NCBI RefSeq assembly: GCF_032163395.1 | Contig: NZ_CP119968.1 | Span: 915,501-979,500 of the forward strand | DNA: 64,000 bases | Direction of reading: 5' to 3' | Source: Gloeocapsopsis dulcis | Lineage (GTDB): Bacteria > Cyanobacteriota > Cyanobacteriia > Cyanobacteriales > Chroococcidiopsidaceae | Shown here: positions 18,421-27,582 of the stretch, piece after piece | Layout of the letters: every line of letters begins with the position of its first letter | How positions within the stretch are numbered: the stretch's first letter is position 1 | Program-made: the position numbers and the translations under genes | Notes under the pieces: generated by a model | What the model was told of the DNA's origin: nothing | The model's input: only the letters and a program-made list of their open reading frames with translations | Database searches by the model: none

Positions 18421-20011
18421 GTAGCGTCCAACGTTGGGTACTTCCTAACTGCTGTGCTGCTGAAAGTTGGAGATTTTTAAGTGTTGGGGGATCGAGAAGA
18501 AGATAGGATAGCGAATTGTGTTGCCATTGACGCTGAAGTTCGTCAGGAGTAGCAGTAATAATTTGGCGATCGCTATAAAAATTTAGCGAAGGACGAGCGT
18601 AAGGAAAAGATGTATAAATGATCTGTCCTGGGGGTGTAGACTTTTGAATCATTGCAGCAACAGGTTTTACAGGATAAGCTTCGGCAAGTTCCCAAACCCA
18701 GTGGTGCGAAGTCATAAATAACACAAGCGAGACATACATTCCCCAAATTAAAATTATCAAGAACTGGCGATCGCCTCGTCTAGCTAAAATATTTGCCAAA
18801 ATCATTGTGCCTGCAACTGCAGCTAAAATCATTTGTAATGCAACATCCTGTGCAGGACTCCAAGGGCTAAAGTAGAAACTACCAAGAGTGGCTCCTACGG
18901 CAAGTAGCCCCAAGCACACAACGACTGGGCGCGGATATGAGGCATCAGATGTATGCCAGTAATCAGCTAACTGTGCTCCCACAGCTAAAGAAATAGCTGG
19001 ATATAGTGGCAAAACATACCAAGGAAGCTTGGTTTGCATTACAGAAATTGCGATCAAATAAAAGCCAATCCACACAAGGATGAGTTTTGCCCAACTCCAG
19101 TTGCGGTTTTCCCATGCTTTACGTAAACCCTGGGGCAAAAAAAGCAACCAAGGCAAGCTGTACTTTAATATCTCCAATAAATAATACCAAGGTGGTCCGG
19201 CATGATTTTCTACACTTGTCCAAACACGACTCAAGGATTGAGCCATAATTCCTGTATGAGTGAAAGTGTTGCCGTATTCCAGCCATTGAGATAAGTACCA
19301 CCAAGTTACAGGCGCAGCACCAATAAAAACACCTACGCATAAGTAAGGACTCGTCAGTAATCGTGGCGTATCCCACAACAAAAATAACAGCGCGATCGCC
19401 AGCAGCAATAATCCAATAATTCCTTTAGTCAGACAAACTAAGGCAAATCCAATACCAACACCCAAGCAATAACGTAAATTGCGACGCGATCGTAATACAC
19501 ACAACATCATCAACAGAAAGAAACACACTACCGCCCCATCCAACATTGCTAATCGCCCATGACGCACCATTGGTAGCAGTGTGAGATATACCAATGCAGA
19601 AAAAATTGCCGGCGATCTCCTGGGGAAAACTTCCCGCCCGATACAGTACAATAGAGGCACAGAAATCGCACTCAGCATCGCTCCTGGCAAACGTGATGTC
19701 CACTCATTAACCCCGCCAAGTGAGTACGCCTCAGCTATCAATAAATGCATGAGTGGTGGCTTATTTAGATAAGGTGTGCCTCCTAGCGTAGGATGCAGCC
19801 AACGCCATGAATTCGCAGGCGCACGCCAAATTTCGCGGGCAACTTGGGCGACAGTTCCTTCATCCCAATCGCGTAGTGCTAATCCTCCCAAATTAATACT
19901 GTAAACTAGCACTGCAGCTAACAATAAAGCTAAAATCCATAACCAATCAACCTTGCTATTGCGTCGGTAATCAAACTTTTTTGCAAAATCCCAATGAAAG
20001 CGATCGCGCAT
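18401..20011 (-). CDS. GT39-family (PMT/ArnT-like) membrane glycosyltransferase
   Basis: 536 residues, about twelve membrane helices. The first loop carries the acidic catalytic pair after the first helix (LRDWDEGTVAQVAREIWRAP), and the next loop PYLNKPPLMHLLIAEAYSLG contains the conserved KPP motif; SRLPGAMLSAISVPLLYCIG follows. These match ArnT/PMT enzymes, which use polyprenyl-phosphate sugars on the outer face of the membrane. The acceptor (lipid, protein or polysaccharide) cannot be told. Single gene, long upstream spacer. Confidence 0.88.
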   Translation of the reverse strand: MRDRFHWDFAKKFDYRRNSKVDWLWILALLLAAVLVYSINLGGLALRDWDEGTVAQVAREIWRAPANSWRWLHPTLGGTPYLNKPPLMHLLIAEAYSLGGVNEWTSRLPGAMLSAISVPLLYCIGREVFPRRSPAIFSALVYLTLLPMVRHGRLAMLDGAVVCFFLLMMLCVLRSRRNLRYCLGVGIGFALVCLTKGIIGLLLLAIALLFLLWDTPRLLTSPYLCVGVFIGAAPVTWWYLSQWLEYGNTFTHTGIMAQSLSRVWTSVENHAGPPWYYLLEILKYSLPWLLFLPQGLRKAWENRNWSWAKLILVWIGFYLIAISVMQTKLPWYVLPLYPAISLAVGAQLADYWHTSDASYPRPVVVCLGLLAVGATLGSFYFSPWSPAQDVALQMILAAVAGTMILANILARRGDRQFLIILIWGMYVSLVLFMTSHHWVWELAEAYPVKPVAAMIQKSTPPGQIIYTSFPYARPSLNFYSDRQIITATPDELQRQWQHNSLSYLLLDPPTLKNLQLSAAQQLGSTQRWTLLRRGEG

Positions 20012-20375
20012 ATTTTGGACGAGTTAATATTCTGATTTCCAAGTCTAGCTTCAACTAAAGATTGATAGTTAGTTTACTTATTTTTCTTCTACTACTTATT
20101 AAAATCTGCTACGAAGCATTGGAGCGTTGTGTCAGGAACTTTGCTCTAATTTCCTAAACGTGGGTCTGAGCGATCGCGCGTCCTCTGATCCCTTCCCGAG
20201 ACAAATTCTCTAAAAAATAACTATAAATTCAATTTTATGAGAATCTTCTTACATTTTTTACGATTAGCTCACAAAAGCTCTTGATTTATCAATTTTATTC
20301 AAAGATTTACTCAAAGGTATAGCATTTTAGGAATAATTACTTAGGCTAAACTACGTAAGTATTTTTTCTAGGTAT
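20012..20375. other. Spacer without recognised content
   Basis: 364 bp between divergent GT39 and PhyH-like genes. AT-rich; one HIP1 site at about 20171; no coding frame or hairpin of note. Confidence 0.5.
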
Positions 20376-21299
20376 ATGCTACTGATAAACGATAAACTCA
20401 GGTACAGCCGTAGCAGGCTGCGACATTTGTTGGTAAGGATTAGTCTTAAAGTAAAACCTTACTATACATATTCCGTTCAAAATCCGAAGTGGTTATTGAT
20501 GTTTGTGTTCTCGCGATTTCAAATAATTCGTTCTCGCATCGACATTTTTTATCCAAAAACAGAACTTGAGCAATATTCAGAAGTCTCTATATTTGAAAAT
20601 CTTGATGTAGAAAATATCATCCAATCGTTACAAGAGGATGGCTTATACTTAGGTATTCAACTTCCGCAAACGATTGTAGAGGAGATTTTAGAATTTACAG
20701 AGCGCGAGCAGTGTTATGCCAATCTCAATCCACAACTGATGTTTCATGTCAATAGTAAAGAATCTTGGCAAGAAAAGTACGGTTCTCTTGTGGTTAGTGA
20801 CTATGTAGATCCTGAGAGAAATTGTCGCGCAATCGAGAAGATTATTCAAGATCCTAAGTTGCTCAAAATAGCAGCTACTTACTTAAATGCAAAACCTGTG
20901 TTTACAGGTTCGCGGTTGTGGTGGAGTTTTGCAACAAATGCTAATTTCCAAGAAAGACTAAATTTTGCCCAAGAATTATTTCATTACGATCCAACTGATT
21001 ATCGTTCGCTAAAATTCTTCTTTTACTTAACTAATGTGGGTTCTGGTAATGGACCTCATGTTTGCGTCCGTGGAAGTCACAAAAACAAAAAGATTTCTCA
21101 TCAATTGACTTTGTTTATTGGTCGTAGCGATCGCGATATTAGTCAATATTATCAGCAAAAAGATATATTAACGATCTGCGGAGATGTCGGTTTTGGTTTT
21201 GCCGAAGATCCTTTCTGTTTTCATAAAGGCACTCCACCTCAACAAGGCGATCGCCTCATGTTACAAATAGAATTTTGTCTAAATAACTATCATTTTTAA
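20376..21299 (+). CDS. Phytanoyl-CoA-dioxygenase-like Fe(II)/2-oxoglutarate oxygenase
   Basis: 307 residues. The iron triad is visible: H203-x-D205 (LFHYDPTDYRSLKFF) and H283 (FCFHKGTPPQQGDRLMLQIE), with Arg293 ten residues later as the expected 2-oxoglutarate ligand. The segment GNGPHVCVRGSHKNKK is typical of PhyH-type loops. The first 60 residues are basic and hydrophobic and have no assignment. The substrate is unknown; PhyH-like proteins hydroxylate lipids or secondary metabolites. Its stop overlaps the stop of the convergent LysR gene by three bases. Confidence 0.8.
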   Translation: MLLINDKLRYSRSRLRHLLVRISLKVKPYYTYSVQNPKWLLMFVFSRFQIIRSRIDIFYPKTELEQYSEVSIFENLDVENIIQSLQEDGLYLGIQLPQTIVEEILEFTEREQCYANLNPQLMFHVNSKESWQEKYGSLVVSDYVDPERNCRAIEKIIQDPKLLKIAATYLNAKPVFTGSRLWWSFATNANFQERLNFAQELFHYDPTDYRSLKFFFYLTNVGSGNGPHVCVRGSHKNKKISHQLTLFIGRSDRDISQYYQQKDILTICGDVGFGFAEDPFCFHKGTPPQQGDRLMLQIEFCLNNYHF

Positions 21300-22207
21300 A
21301 CTACAGCTTTCAAGATGAACTGCTCTGACTTCTTGAGAACATCTAAAAAGGCAAAAACTGCAGGAGTTTGTAGTGTATCTGCTAACACAGCTACACCAAT
21401 AACTCTTTCCAGAGGAGTTGGTAAAGTGCAGGCTTGTAAACCTCGCGGTACTGGTTCAGCGGCTAATCGTGGGAGAATTGCTGCACCTAAGCCTTGAGCA
21501 ACCATACTAACAATTGTAGAATCTTCTCTAACTTCATAGGCAACATTTAAAGGACAGTCAGAAAATTTTAGATGATTGCGAATTCTAATTGAGCAGGTAT
21601 TTGTGGAAGGAACAATTAAAGGATAAGCTGCTAACTGCTGCCAATTAATTTCTTGAGTGATATTTGGGGCAGTTGGAGGTAACAATACAATGTAATCATC
21701 GCGCAATAACTCCCAAGTTTCAAATTCATCACTAGCAGGAAGATAGGTGAAGCCAAGATCGGCATGACCTTCACGTAAATCTTGTTCTACATTGATGTAA
21801 TCGTAATGCTCCGTAATTGTGATTGCAATCTTAGGAAAGTTGCTGCGAAACTGGGCAATCACTGCTGGTAAGATGTGAGTCGCTACGCTCCGAAAACAGG
21901 CAATTCGTACTTGTCCGCCATGCAAACCTTTTTCGAGGTTTGCTTCTTTAGCCATGGTTTCGAGTAATTGTAGTACCTGACGTGCATGAGCAATAATACG
22001 TTCTCCTACAGGGGTAGGATGCGCACCATAACGCCCACGCGCCAGTAAGACTACGCCTAAATCTTCTTCTAAAGCAGCGATCGCATGACTCACCGCTGAC
22101 TGCGATATCTCCAAGTGCAACGCAGCCGTACTGAAGTTTCCCTGTTCTGCAACTGCGACTAATGCCCGCAACTGCGAAAGCTTGATTTTACTAGTAATGT
22201 CACTCAT
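21296..22207 (-). CDS. LysR family transcriptional regulator
   Basis: 303 residues. Winged helix KLSQLRALVAVAEQGNFSTA and ISQSAVSHAIAALEEDLGVV, then a full effector-binding domain (GGQVRIACFRSVATHILPAV; LREGHADLGFTYLPASDEFE). It is divergent from the two small genes at 22461 and 22775. The region between has a perfect 8-bp inverted repeat (ATATGAAT-TTT-ATTCATAT at 22343), and an equivalent palindrome stands before the amidohydrolase gene at 23081. The protein is the obvious candidate to bind both, but this is inference. Confidence 0.93.
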   Translation of the reverse strand: MSDITSKIKLSQLRALVAVAEQGNFSTAALHLEISQSAVSHAIAALEEDLGVVLLARGRYGAHPTPVGERIIAHARQVLQLLETMAKEANLEKGLHGGQVRIACFRSVATHILPAVIAQFRSNFPKIAITITEHYDYINVEQDLREGHADLGFTYLPASDEFETWELLRDDYIVLLPPTAPNITQEINWQQLAAYPLIVPSTNTCSIRIRNHLKFSDCPLNVAYEVREDSTIVSMVAQGLGAAILPRLAAEPVPRGLQACTLPTPLERVIGVAVLADTLQTPAVFAFLDVLKKSEQFILKAVV

Positions 22208-22342
22208 AGAACGTTAAAAGCAATTAGCTGTTAGTAATTAGCTGTTAGCTAAACCGTACAGATGAAGCTGAGGGCTTGAATCTATCAAGTAGTCAGATAG
22301 CCGCTAATCACCAAGCGTTTCTTGGTCGTAATATCCCTTTGT

Positions 22343-22361
22343 ATATGAATTTTATTCATAT
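22343..22361. promoter_or_regulatory. Palindromic operator candidate 1
   Basis: ATATGAAT-TTT-ATTCATAT, perfect arms of 8 bp, between the divergent LysR and 93-residue genes. It shares its ATGAAT/ATTCAT core with 23049-23066. Confidence 0.6.
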
Positions 22362-22460
22362 GTTTTATGCATATTTTAATTGGATTGTCAAGAAAAACAT
22401 TGGTAAAGTGGATTGATTAAGAGAAGCAAACAAGGTGAGGTGAGGTCATAAAGATTTAGT

Positions 22461-22742
22461 ATGAAAAATTCGACTAGTGCCTTTGAGCGAGAAAAACTAG
22501 AATTTCTCTATCATCAACCAATAAAAAAAGCAAAATATACTAACGTTTTTGCACCCCTAAAAAGCATTTGGCAACAAGTAATCAACTATCTGAATGCAAA
22601 GCACGAGCTACAAGTTTGGCAGAGTTCAGATCGTGATGGTCATACATGGTGGAATGCTTACGATCCTATAACAGGTCGTACTACAAAACGTAACTCAGAA
22701 ACCGAGATGCGTGCTTGGATTGAAGAGCGATATTACTACTAA
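22461..22742 (+). CDS. Small conserved cyanobacterial protein, function unknown
   Basis: 93 residues, soluble. It reads as an alpha/beta protein with a basic N-terminal half (LKSIWQQVINYLNAKHELQV) and an aromatic C-terminal half (WQSSDRDGHTWWNAYDPITG; MRAWIEERYYY). I do not recognise a domain. It is followed after 32 bp by a 51-residue gene sharing a PLxSxW segment (PLKSIWQQ versus PLISFWKF), so the two may interact or be related. The pair ends in a strong terminator and is preceded by a palindromic operator candidate, and thus forms its own small operon. Confidence 0.7.
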   Translation: MKNSTSAFEREKLEFLYHQPIKKAKYTNVFAPLKSIWQQVINYLNAKHELQVWQSSDRDGHTWWNAYDPITGRTTKRNSETEMRAWIEERYYY

Positions 22743-22774
22743 CTGAGTTTAATTATTAAATAGGAGGAATAATA

Positions 22775-22930
22775 ATGATTTTCTCTCATCGCAATCAAGA
22801 ATCTATCCTAGTCAATCAAACTAGCAACAAGCAAAAATCTTTTCATCTGTTGTTGCGTCCGCTAATTAGTTTCTGGAAGTTTAGCTGTTACTATGCAGAC
22901 TACAAAGCACGCATTTGGGATCTCAAGTAA
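22775..22930 (+). CDS. 51-residue small protein, function unknown
   Basis: This short gene has an ATG at 22775 preceded by AGGAGG at the ideal distance and a TAA at 22928. The product starts MIFSHRNQESILVNQ and ends FWKFSCYYADYKARIWDLK. It is basic and aromatic and has no membrane helix. The perfect ribosome site, the position between a small gene and a strong terminator, and the shared PLxSxW segment with the upstream product make it convincing as a real gene. No function is known. Confidence 0.75.
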   Translation: MIFSHRNQESILVNQTSNKQKSFHLLLRPLISFWKFSCYYADYKARIWDLK

Positions 22931-22946
22931 GCCCTTAACACAACTC

Positions 22947-22976
22947 ATCCCCAGTCCGCCCTGGGGATTTTTCTTT
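22947..22976 (+). terminator. Rho-independent terminator of the small-gene operon
   Basis: ATCCCCAG (22947-22954), loop TCCGCC, CTGGGGAT (22961-22968), then a T-rich tract TTTTCTTTG. Perfect 8-bp stem. Confidence 0.9.
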
Positions 22977-23048
22977 GCAGTGCATTGCAACTTGTTACCG
23001 TCGTTACATTTGTTTACCTCAATTCAAGGGAAAATAAGAACTTCGTAG

Positions 23049-23066
23049 TATGAATACACATTCATA
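23049..23066. promoter_or_regulatory. Palindromic operator candidate 2
   Basis: TATGAAT-ACAC-ATTCATA, perfect 7-bp arms, 14 bases before the ATG of the amidohydrolase-like gene. Same core as 22343-22361. Its position next to the start suggests repression. Confidence 0.55.
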
Positions 23067-23080
23067 ATTTGGGGTAGTAA

Positions 23081-23896
23081 ATGACGTCAAGTAGCTGGGT
23101 ATTAACTGAGGGAGATGGACCTGTTGTCGCTGTCGCGTTGCATGATGGTCATGATATCCGCGAAGAAGTCGCCCCGTTACTCAGCGTCACCGAAGCGGAT
23201 CGCTGGCGCGAAGAAGATCCCTATACCGCACATTGGACAAAGATTGGCGATACCAGAATTATTGCACAGCGATCGCGTTTTGAATTTGACCTGAATCGCC
23301 GCCGCGATCGAGCTGTCTATATTAAACCTGAAGATGCATGGGGATTAAAAGTTTGGCAAAATAGACCACCCCGTGCTATTATTGAGCGTTCTTTGGCAGA
23401 ACATGACGCCTTTTATGCAATGTTGGAAGGAGTCTTGAGCAATATTGAACGTCGCCATAGCCGCTTTATTGTATTCGAGTTACATACTTACAACCACTTG
23501 CGTTTTGGTCACTCATTACCCGCTGATCCGCGATACAATCCTGAAATCAACATTGGGACAGGAACACTCAATCGTCAACGGTGGGCACCTGTCATCGACC
23601 GTTTTACAAAGGATTTGCAAGCTTTCAACTTTCTAGGTAGACATTTAGATGTCCGCGAAAATATCAACTTTTCTGGTGGTTACTTCCCTCGCTGGGTACA
23701 TCAAACATTTCCTGACTCAGCGTGTGTTTTATCAATTGAAGTTAAGAAGTTTTTTATGAACGAATGGACTAATGAAGTAGACATTGTGCAGTTAGATGCG
23801 ATTCGTCAAGCACTGCAATCGACTGTCCCAGGTTTACTAGAAGCTTTAAATCAAGTCGATGCAGGTATTACCAGCAGCGCGTATCAATTAGCTTAA
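23081..23896 (+). CDS. N-formylglutamate amidohydrolase family protein
   Basis: 271 residues. The family zinc site is indicated by VALHDGHDIREE near the start and by FIVFELHTYNHLRFG, with RFEFDLNRRRDRAVY between them, a recognised FGase motif. Members hydrolyse N-formyl-L-glutamate in histidine degradation, but many homologues outside hut clusters act on other acyl or peptide bonds. No hut gene is present here; instead a GCS2-type carboxylate-amine ligase follows 300 bp downstream. The pairing suggests making and breaking of a glutamyl-type amide, which is inference. Confidence 0.82.
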   Translation: MTSSSWVLTEGDGPVVAVALHDGHDIREEVAPLLSVTEADRWREEDPYTAHWTKIGDTRIIAQRSRFEFDLNRRRDRAVYIKPEDAWGLKVWQNRPPRAIIERSLAEHDAFYAMLEGVLSNIERRHSRFIVFELHTYNHLRFGHSLPADPRYNPEINIGTGTLNRQRWAPVIDRFTKDLQAFNFLGRHLDVRENINFSGGYFPRWVHQTFPDSACVLSIEVKKFFMNEWTNEVDIVQLDAIRQALQSTVPGLLEALNQVDAGITSSAYQLA

Positions 23897-23987
23897 CTAA
23901 AAATATTGAGGTGTGAGGATTGAAGAGTAAAATTAAAATAGTACCACGCACATAAAACCGTGGAGACATTAAAGAGGGCTGACGAGA

Positions 23988-24176
23988 TGGGAAGTTATGA
24001 GTTATGAGTGTTGAGTTTAAGAGAGTTATGAGTTATGAGTTTAAGAAAGTTCTTCAATAATTCAAAACTCAAAATTCAAAACTCAAAACTTAAAATAATT
24101 GCCTCCGGCACGCTACGCTTTCCAAAACTCTTTAGAATTCAAAACTCAAAACTAATCACTCACCCCTCTACATTGG
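23988..24176 (+). repeat. Composite dispersed repeat, copy R3
   Basis: GAGTTATGAGTTTAAG and CAAAACTCAAAACTT runs, core GCCTCCGGCACGCTACGC (24101-24118), and ACTAATCACTCACCCCTC at the end. It fills most of the gap between the amidohydrolase and GCS2 genes. Confidence 0.75.
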
Positions 24177-24196
24177 CTTGCTTTGAGGTTTAAAGC

Positions 24197-25516
24197 ATGA
24201 GTGTAGAAGATCGGCGGATAGGGCTTGAGCAAGAGTTTTTTTTAGTAGATGAACAAGGTGTTATTTCGCAGCGCGGTGATGAATACTTACAGCATTGTCA
24301 AGAAGTAGCAACATCAGAAGGACGAAATCCTCAGCATTTTGCCCCTGAATGGGTAAAAAGCATGGTGGAAATTAACACACCGCCTGCATATAGTGTGACA
24401 GAGTTAGCAACTGAGTATTTAAGCAATCTCAAGGTAGCACTCAAGGTAGCTAAGGAAATGAGTCTCAGGCTTTACCCTTTATCTACCTATCCGTTACACG
24501 TTATGCCGACAATTCGTAACAAGCCGTGGTATCACATTCAAGTCCGCACCGTAGGCTTTGATCGCTTTATGCACGCGGCGCGGTGTACGGGAACGCACAT
24601 TCATTTAGATCTCCCTGAAGGAATTATTGACCGACGTGTAGGCGTATCTTACAACTCTACACCAGAGGCACGCGCAGAACTGCTCAATATCTACAATTTA
24701 GCAACAGCTTTAGACCCATCACTGATTGTCCTATCGCGTGCGTGTCCTTTCTACGAAGGACGAGTGATGAAGTTTGCAGCCCATACCGTACGTTATCGCG
24801 GTAGTGAGGTTTTTGGCTGGGAAGGAGTGTATACCCATTTGCAATCTGTAGGTGGATTACAGCCTTATGCAGCAGACACTGAAGAATTAGTTGAGTTACA
24901 GTTTGCACGGTACTACTCTTGGTTATCAGCAATGGATAAAGCAGGAGTAGAGAGACGTTTATTTCAAGAAGCTGGGGGAAATCTGCTTAAGGCGGCGTGG
25001 AATCGCGTGCGACTTAACGGTATTGGTACAGTAGAAATGCGCGGTACAGATAGTAACTATCCCCAAGTCATTTTAGCGATCGCTACGCTACTTTATCACG
25101 CGGCGCATCGCGTACGAACTGAGCAATTGACAGTAAAACCAACTGATGGAGTACGCACATTTGAGTTGAATGGCAATATCCTTGCTGTACCCGATTTTCG
25201 CTATCTTGATGGTGATTTGCTCTATGCTGCTGTCACTGAGGGAGTTAAGAGTGCTGAGGTTGTTGCTTATTTAGATTCGATTCTTGATTTTGCTGTGCAA
25301 GAAGGTGGTGAAGGATCGCACTATCTAGAAACTTTGAGATCTTCGTTAGGGCAATATCAAACTACTGAAGCGGAAATTTTACAAGACTTTATCCCAACTA
25401 CTGAAGAAATCTCGCAAGAAGAGGGCTTACGTTTGGTACGTCAGTGTTGCGACAAGTTAGAACAGCAAGTTGCATTTCTAGAACAATCGCATTTCGAGAT
25501 GCTTATGGAGAATTAA
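24197..25516 (+). CDS. Glutamate-cysteine-ligase family (GCS2) carboxylate-amine ligase
   Basis: 439 residues. The start IGLEQEFFLVDEQGVISQRG carries the acidic metal ligands of the GCS2 fold. Further family blocks are EWVKSMVEINTPPAYSVTEL, TGTHIHLDLPEG and GIGTVEMRGTDSNYPQVILA. In cyanobacteria some GCS2 proteins are the true GshA; others have unknown substrates. It is the second gene after the amidohydrolase-like gene and is followed 3 bases later by a 65-residue gene. Whether it makes gamma-glutamylcysteine or another amide cannot be decided here. Confidence 0.85.
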   Translation: MSVEDRRIGLEQEFFLVDEQGVISQRGDEYLQHCQEVATSEGRNPQHFAPEWVKSMVEINTPPAYSVTELATEYLSNLKVALKVAKEMSLRLYPLSTYPLHVMPTIRNKPWYHIQVRTVGFDRFMHAARCTGTHIHLDLPEGIIDRRVGVSYNSTPEARAELLNIYNLATALDPSLIVLSRACPFYEGRVMKFAAHTVRYRGSEVFGWEGVYTHLQSVGGLQPYAADTEELVELQFARYYSWLSAMDKAGVERRLFQEAGGNLLKAAWNRVRLNGIGTVEMRGTDSNYPQVILAIATLLYHAAHRVRTEQLTVKPTDGVRTFELNGNILAVPDFRYLDGDLLYAAVTEGVKSAEVVAYLDSILDFAVQEGGEGSHYLETLRSSLGQYQTTEAEILQDFIPTTEEISQEEGLRLVRQCCDKLEQQVAFLEQSHFEMLMEN

Positions 25517-26351: not shown

Positions 26352-26378
26352 TTTGATACCACATAGTCTAGTATCAAA
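26352..26378 (+). repeat. Hairpin at the left end of the TnpB element
   Basis: TTTGATAC (26352-26359) and GTATCAAA (26371-26378) form a perfect 8-bp stem immediately before the GTG start of tnpB. A second hairpin CCCCTT-CC-AAGGGG lies just upstream near 26306. Subterminal hairpins are characteristic of IS200/IS605 ends. Confidence 0.55.
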
Positions 26379-26379
26379 G

Positions 26380-27582
26380 GTGTTTGTCTACGAGTACAAA
26401 GTCAACCCAAAGCCACAACAAATAGCCGCCATCAATGAAGCAATTAGGACATCTCAATTTGTCCGCAATAAAGTGCTTCGCTATTGGATGGATAATCGTG
26501 GTGTGGGAAAGACTGAGATGTTTAGATATAACACTAACTTGAGGAAAGAGTATAAATTTGTTGATGATTTAAACTCCCATGCCTGCCAGACTGCTGTTGA
26601 AAGAGTCCTGAGAGCCGTTAATCGCTTCTACGACAACTGCAAAAAACAGATACCTGGGAAAAAAGGATATCCACAATTCAAGCGTTCCTCTCGCTCAGTT
26701 GAATATAAGGTGTCGGGGTGGAAGTTATCGCAGAACAGAAAACGTATTACTTTCACCGATAAGAAAGGGATAGGCAATCTCAAGTTAATCGGTTCTAGGG
26801 ATTTAAATTTTTATCAAATAGAACAAATTAAGCGCGTCAGAATTATCCGTCGTGCCGATGGGTATTACGTACAGTTCTCAGTGCATCTAGATCCTAGAGA
26901 CACGGTTGAACCTATAATTCCTAGCCAAAAAGCAGTAGGTATTGATGTCGGCATCAAGTATTTCTTGGCAGATAGTCAAGGAAATGTTGAGCCTAACCCC
27001 CAGTTTTATCGTCGAGGAGAAAAACAATTAAATCGTTTAAATAGGAGGAAGTCTAAAAAGTTTCGTAAAGGTACACATCAGTCTAGAAACTATCACAGGG
27101 CTAGATGTTTATATGCATTGAAGCATTTAAAAGTAAGTAGGCAGCGAGAAGAGTTTGTCAAGAGAGTGGCACTCCGTTTAATCAAGTCTAACGACTTAGT
27201 AGCCTATGAAGATTTAAATGTGAAAGGCATGGTAAAGAACAAGCATCTGTCTAAGTCGATTAGTGATGCAGGATGGTCAACTTTTAAAAGGTGGTTAGAT
27301 TATTTTGGCTACAAATATGGCAAGATAACTATTGCAGTTTCTCCATACAACACCAGCCAGAACTGCTCTAACTGTGGCGAAAAAGTGCAGAAGTCTCTAT
27401 CTACTAGAACTCATATTTGTTCTCATTGTAATTATGTGGAAGATAGAGATGTTAACGCTGCAATCAACATCCTACAAAAGGGACTACTAAGTACCGTCGG
27501 GCAGACGGAATCTTCTAAGCTTGGGGAGATAGAACCTCTGGCTAGGTTGGAGCAATCCTGCTTAACTAAGTTGTGTCTGTGA
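26380..27582 (+). CDS. tnpB: RNA-guided endonuclease TnpB
   Basis: 400 residues from the GTG at 26380; a TTG at 26353 would add nine residues inside the left-end hairpin. The RuvC triad is present: Asp in GIDVGIKYFLADSQG, Glu in VAYEDLNVKGMVKN, and Asp in DRDVNAAINIL. The zinc ribbon CSNCGEKVQ...CSHCNY is intact. The N-terminal domain begins VFVYEYKVNPKPQQIAAINE. TnpB uses an omegaRNA from the element's 3' end to cut DNA and favour element retention. All catalytic residues are kept, so it is probably active. No HIP1 site in the gene. Confidence 0.92.
   Translation: MFVYEYKVNPKPQQIAAINEAIRTSQFVRNKVLRYWMDNRGVGKTEMFRYNTNLRKEYKFVDDLNSHACQTAVERVLRAVNRFYDNCKKQIPGKKGYPQFKRSSRSVEYKVSGWKLSQNRKRITFTDKKGIGNLKLIGSRDLNFYQIEQIKRVRIIRRADGYYVQFSVHLDPRDTVEPIIPSQKAVGIDVGIKYFLADSQGNVEPNPQFYRRGEKQLNRLNRRKSKKFRKGTHQSRNYHRARCLYALKHLKVSRQREEFVKRVALRLIKSNDLVAYEDLNVKGMVKNKHLSKSISDAGWSTFKRWLDYFGYKYGKITIAVSPYNTSQNCSNCGEKVQKSLSTRTHICSHCNYVEDRDVNAAINILQKGLLSTVGQTESSKLGEIEPLARLEQSCLTKLCL

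Follow-up and report, generated by a model that had tools for sequence, protein, structure and literature searches.

LysR-family proteins are usually tetramers, and RbcR, NdhR/CcmR, CmpR and PacR are cyanobacterial LysR regulators that share protein family and phylum with the LysR protein considered here. In the layout set out in the excerpted part of PMC4834489, a T-N11-A site near -65 overlaps the promoter of a divergent LysR gene and a secondary site lies at -35, and LysR regulators with such a layout activate the target and repress their own gene. We analysed a stretch of 64,000 nucleotides from Gloeocapsopsis dulcis (hereafter, the window) in which a LysR gene resembles the ThnR and PltR systems, as excerpts of PMC4834489 and PMC3382589 describe them, in its HTH_1 and LysR_substrate domains, in a T-N11-A dyad within a divergent intergenic region and in a second box towards -35. 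Compared to what those excerpts report for ThnR and PltR, the window differs in that its LysR protein has as predicted targets two small proteins to which no family is assigned, and in that few exact operator sites per genome occur beyond the LysR locus. We consider it highly probable (roughly 85%) that the interrupted palindrome between the LysR gene and the small genes, referred to below as palindrome 1, is the primary operator through which the neighbouring LysR-type regulator would activate the small-gene operon.

The LysR locus and its two palindromes

The genes of the locus follow the order PhyH-like (20376-21299, + strand; Pfam PhyH, E 0.00054, 20.7 bits compared to a gathering score of 22), LysR (21296-22207, - strand), small gene 1 (22461-22742, 93 aa), small gene 2 (22775-22930, 51 aa), N-formylglutamate amidohydrolase-like (FGase, 23081-23896; Pfam PF05013, E 1.2e-17) and glutamate-cysteine ligase-like (24197-25516), the last four all on the + strand. 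Downstream of the ligase-like gene lies a TnpB-like gene (26353-27582) with OrfB_IS605 and Cas12f1-like TNB domains. No Rfam family of structured RNA reached its gathering score in the interval 20000-24300.

The 303-aa product of the minus-strand gene is a LysR-type transcriptional regulator, with an N-terminal HTH_1 domain (E 3.3e-20) and a C-terminal LysR_substrate domain (E 5.6e-36) that scored 72.2 and 124.3 bits, respectively, compared to cut-offs of 26.6 and 28. None of the 25 NCBIfam models listed for this protein reached its cut-off, and no name was assigned; among the papers listed, no published description of the regulator was recognised by title or by the start of the abstract. The LysR profile found no solved structure at E 1e-30, a threshold so strict that this result says little. 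Both small genes have homologues in relatives, where small gene 1 is the divergent partner of LysR and homologues of small gene 2 stand beside small gene 1 in several cases; searches of Pfam and NCBIfam gave no match for either. The AlphaFold model of the small gene 1 product contains three strands and helices (mean pLDDT 73.5, pTM 0.47), and no solved structure matched it at E <=0.001.

Palindrome 1 (ATATGAATTTTATTCATAT, 22343-22361) lies between LysR and small gene 1, and palindrome 2 (TATGAATACACATTCATA, 23049-23066) has its last base 14 bases before the amidohydrolase start codon; no strand is assigned to either. A preliminary description of this DNA had reported two near-identical palindromes with the same arms, the first in the divergent region of a LysR gene, and we find both as described, with identical arms 705 bp apart. 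It had also called the pattern unlikely by chance, and by count the pair is indeed nominally unusual as a coincidence. The two palindromes are the only ATGAAT-N2-6-ATTCAT sites in the window, compared to a mean of 0.05 in 100 shuffled windows, none of which reached two sites, and of 100 Markov sequences one contained a same-arm dyad pair at most 1 kb apart (arms of at least 6 bases, centre of 3-4). Across the 5.6-Mb genome, ATGAAT-N0-12-ATTCAT occurs at 15 places, compared to 9 for a reversed control pattern; the centre is N3-4 at three of these 15, and two of the three are palindromes 1 and 2. The rarity of the pair alone cannot tell whether both palindromes are functional. At the level of sequence, conservation separates them: a scan of relatives, which the preliminary description had proposed as a check, found palindrome 1 in 6/6 syntenic species and palindrome 2 in 1/6, the window being counted in both cases.

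Palindrome 1 contains the dyad TGAATTTTATTCA, whose T-N11-A frame recurs in most homologous loci, and it is an interrupted dyad in a divergent intergenic region, which is the form and setting of a LysR-type operator. By eye, we placed a predicted promoter for the small-gene operon at 22380-22408 on the + strand (-35 TTGGAT, 22380-22385; -10 GTAAAG, 22403-22408) and a predicted transcription start at about 22415, relative to which the dyad centre falls at about -63. To score sites, we used an operator matrix of 58 distinct operator sequences, from which the window's own site was omitted and in which near relatives were kept; in a scan of the window, palindrome 1 ranked first by this matrix, with 27.7 bits. 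The matrix shows TTTGAT at the expected -35 position and, 22 bp after the first arm, a second box with the consensus CTATGCAA. The window's equivalents are TTGGAT and TATGCATA (22366-22373, no strand assigned), the latter a conserved box that matrix and alignment mark as a predicted secondary (activation) site.

Palindrome 1 in syntenic relatives and across the order

The core of palindrome 1, ATATGAATTYTATTCAT, is present in 6/6 syntenic species from two genera, window included. In the five other species it is unchanged save for one centre transition (Y), and the flanks carry insertions and substitutions.

Beyond these species, we searched 243 sampled genomes for LysR homologues with a cut-off of E 1e-85 and obtained 90 matches, spread over 73 of the genomes. 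The 90 upstream regions are those of these matches and exclude more remote LysR matches (L046-L053, L060-L064). The pattern TATNNATTTTATNNATA (TATNNAT-TTT-ATNNATA) occurred with at most one mismatch upstream of 46 of the 58 LysR homologues that have a divergent small gene, compared to 3 of the 32 for which none was found, and at two mismatches these fractions were 50/58 and 7/32, respectively; the small-gene search used tblastn (E 1e-3, composition correction off) and covered only ~900 bp upstream for L098-L146, and some of the hits are weak (21-33% identity) or lie 500-800 bp away. At 12 of the 58 small-gene loci the pattern was absent at this one-mismatch limit, under a match with a fixed 3-base centre that misses operators with any other centre. 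Among 79 listed loci from named genomes, which are partly the same as those of the 90 matches, a profile search for the small gene within 1,200 bp gave a result in the same direction: the pattern with at most one mismatch preceded 35 of 60 loci with the small gene, being missing from the other 25, compared to 3 of 19 without it (Fisher p 0.0014). The loci are related by descent and are not independent; thus, these operator and small-gene counts look stronger than they are.

The exact form TATNNATTTTATTCATA gave 60 hits in 52 of the 243 sampled genomes, of which 34 precede a LysR homologue by 61-317 bp. The remaining 26, sorted as off-locus with 45 of the 90 LysR positions entered and the others, per the listing, not near these hits, are close in number to the hits of the reversed-pattern control (24, summed). 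Within the window's own genome, sites with up to three mismatches showed no enrichment over the reversed control (43 compared to 45). A wide LysR regulon was rejected on these two comparisons. Comparison across genomes shows a conserved cyanobacterial module made up of the predicted operator, LysR and small gene 1, and exact sites beyond it are few in each genome.

The window's genome also carries a paralogous LysR, 56% identical (L054, G000:C1:556654-557532), with its own divergent small-gene paralogue. The group to which this paralogue belongs has the upstream dyad TATCAAATTTACTGATA, which in the window's genome reads CATCAAATTTACTGATA and keeps the T-N11-A frame. Compared to shuffles of the same upstream regions, the match to this dyad was weak or not significant (0.04-0.25), and a diverged operator at the paralogous LysR is a possible lead rather than a result.

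Candidate targets on either side of the module

The PhyH-like gene is convergent with LysR, the 3' ends of the two genes overlapping by 4 bases, and adjoins it in 6/6 syntenic species. A candidate second LysR site, TATCAATTTTATTCAAA (20287-20303, + strand), stands 72 bases before this gene. By the operator matrix it is second of the 127,968 window positions, with 21.2 bits compared to 12.8 for the next, and a longer matrix gave 33.2 for palindrome 1, 13.5 for this site and 1.7 for the next. A candidate -10 element read by eye (TAAACT, 20347-20352) is 52 bp from the dyad centre, compared to 51 bp in the small-gene operon. These observations favour a regulon made up of LysR, the small-gene operon and the PhyH-like gene, with operators on both flanks of LysR, as does the presence of TATCAATTTTATTCAAA in 3/3 genomes of the genus, where it is exact to a pattern that was loosened after the site had been seen. 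Compared to the consensus, the site has one mismatch in three of the six syntenic species and three mismatches in the other three, all of the sister genus, in which it is degraded; this tells against the larger regulon, as does the finding that the loosened pattern, within one mismatch, shows no enrichment across six genomes (63 compared to 58 for the control, summed). Eleven further PhyH homologues in the family have no good operator upstream, the best sites there having 4-6 mismatches. A gapless block at ~20240-20376 precedes the PhyH-like gene in 6/6 species (window and syntenic loci L175-L180) and counts in favour of such a site. However, the block holds a short frame with the same stop position in 6/6 species, no obvious start codon and, in the window, an extra internal stop, and this shared-stop frame makes another cause for the conservation of the block possible. 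We regard the regulon that includes the PhyH-like gene as a serious candidate at somewhat less than even odds; it is compatible with, and extends, the reading of palindrome 1 as the LysR operator. Should a local regulon exist, its second member is more likely to be the PhyH-like gene than the amidohydrolase gene.

The preliminary description had instead proposed a local LysR regulon that took in the amidohydrolase gene through palindrome 2. The part that joins palindrome 1, LysR and the small-gene operon is strongly supported by the order-wide comparison; the amidohydrolase part is not, as palindrome 2 is unconserved. We compared 12 amidohydrolase loci (the window and 11 others) found in 19 family genomes. 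Palindrome 2 was in none of the 11 others, 5 of which are syntenic, an absence of conservation that the preliminary description had itself named as counting against its proposal, and no operator-like site within 4 mismatches was present in the 400 bp upstream (one strand) of the amidohydrolase at any of the 12 loci. The centre of palindrome 2 is 4 bases long, one more than that of palindrome 1, making it a T-N12-A dyad. Its operator-matrix score of -21.4 (rank 2,275 of 127,968) is at background, though a matrix with a fixed centre cannot fit an N4 site. Because palindrome 2 ends so close to the start codon, it is more likely to lie downstream than upstream of the amidohydrolase promoter. Between the small-gene operon and palindrome 2, an intrinsic-terminator-like hairpin with a T run follows small gene 2 (22949-22972, + strand), and a pattern search found such a hairpin in 4/6 syntenic loci, window included. 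This hairpin, and the fact that the amidohydrolase has a conserved promoter region to itself, suggest that the gene is transcribed as a unit apart from the small-gene operon.

A different element upstream of the amidohydrolase is shared with relatives: TTACA-N5-TTACA with at most one mismatch occurs in 5/6 syntenic amidohydrolase loci and 0/6 other loci. The window's version, TTACA-N5-TTACC (GTTACATTTGTTTACCTC, 23003-23020, + strand), resembles HLR1 and is a candidate RpaB site. The HLR1 sequences bound by RpaB that are tabled in the excerpted part of PMC6331805 served as the comparison set, and a TTACA-N5-TTACA-like repeat of the kind found in those promoters also stands upstream of the window's amidohydrolase; unlike the HLR1 repeat given there, the window's element has a second repeat that ends in C.

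Palindrome 2 was rejected as an operator on conservation, spacing, position and matrix score; it is probably a coincidence or a strain-specific dyad, and membership of the amidohydrolase in a local LysR regulon is not supported. The identical arms and the scarcity of such pairs would fit a model in which LysR binds both palindromes and the amidohydrolase has entered the regulon, perhaps by a recent strain-level gain, but we consider this model unlikely in view of the results above, the absence of palindrome 2 from 5/5 syntenic relatives among them.

Two of 11 off-locus exact operator hits that were examined, out of the 26, precede small gene 1, in genomes G231 and G134 (loci L224 and L227), where no LysR match was found in the 4.8 and 4.0 kb examined. 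The operator thus stands before small gene 1 without an adjacent LysR, which suggests that it belongs to the small gene as its target. These two genomes, together with the fact that palindrome 1 is tied to LysR by sequence comparison, could be taken to mean that another regulator using the divergent region binds palindrome 1 in place of the adjacent LysR, but this is very improbable given that the operator tracks LysR and the small gene across the order, that G231 and G134 both encode a LysR homologue elsewhere in the genome, and that the T-N11-A frame and its position are as the excerpted part of PMC4834489 leads one to expect of LysR proteins.

A proposed LysR-small protein module

In our preferred reading of palindrome 1 as the LysR operator, the LysR protein would occupy both the T-N11-A dyad (22343-22361, at about -63) and the TATGCATA box beside the -35 element. 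By analogy with other LysR systems, effector-bound LysR would switch on the small-gene operon, and, as in the LysR family, the protein may repress its own divergent gene. Palindrome 2 would lie outside this LysR module, with the amidohydrolase transcribed separately, and the site at 20287-20303 may make the PhyH-like gene, convergent with LysR, a weaker second target. A bolder reading, which we consider less likely than not, would be a dedicated LysR-small protein switch of cyanobacteria with very few operators per genome and the small protein as its sole conserved target, with diverging operators at paralogous modules of the same genome and with the PhyH-like gene as an extension in Gloeocapsopsis.

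As a predicted LysR operator, palindrome 1 is well supported by comparison and ordinary in kind; the mild novelty here lies in the conserved module of LysR and a small protein, and in the family to which that small protein belongs. The locus also illustrates how palindromes with shared arms can mislead, as conservation speaks against the amidohydrolase and points to the PhyH-like gene. The paralogous modules could help to test how DNA specificity changes among LysR proteins. For the cyanobacteria, the comparison would provide a concrete operator, found order-wide, for a LysR regulator that has no name, and would tie an uncharacterised family of small proteins to that operator.
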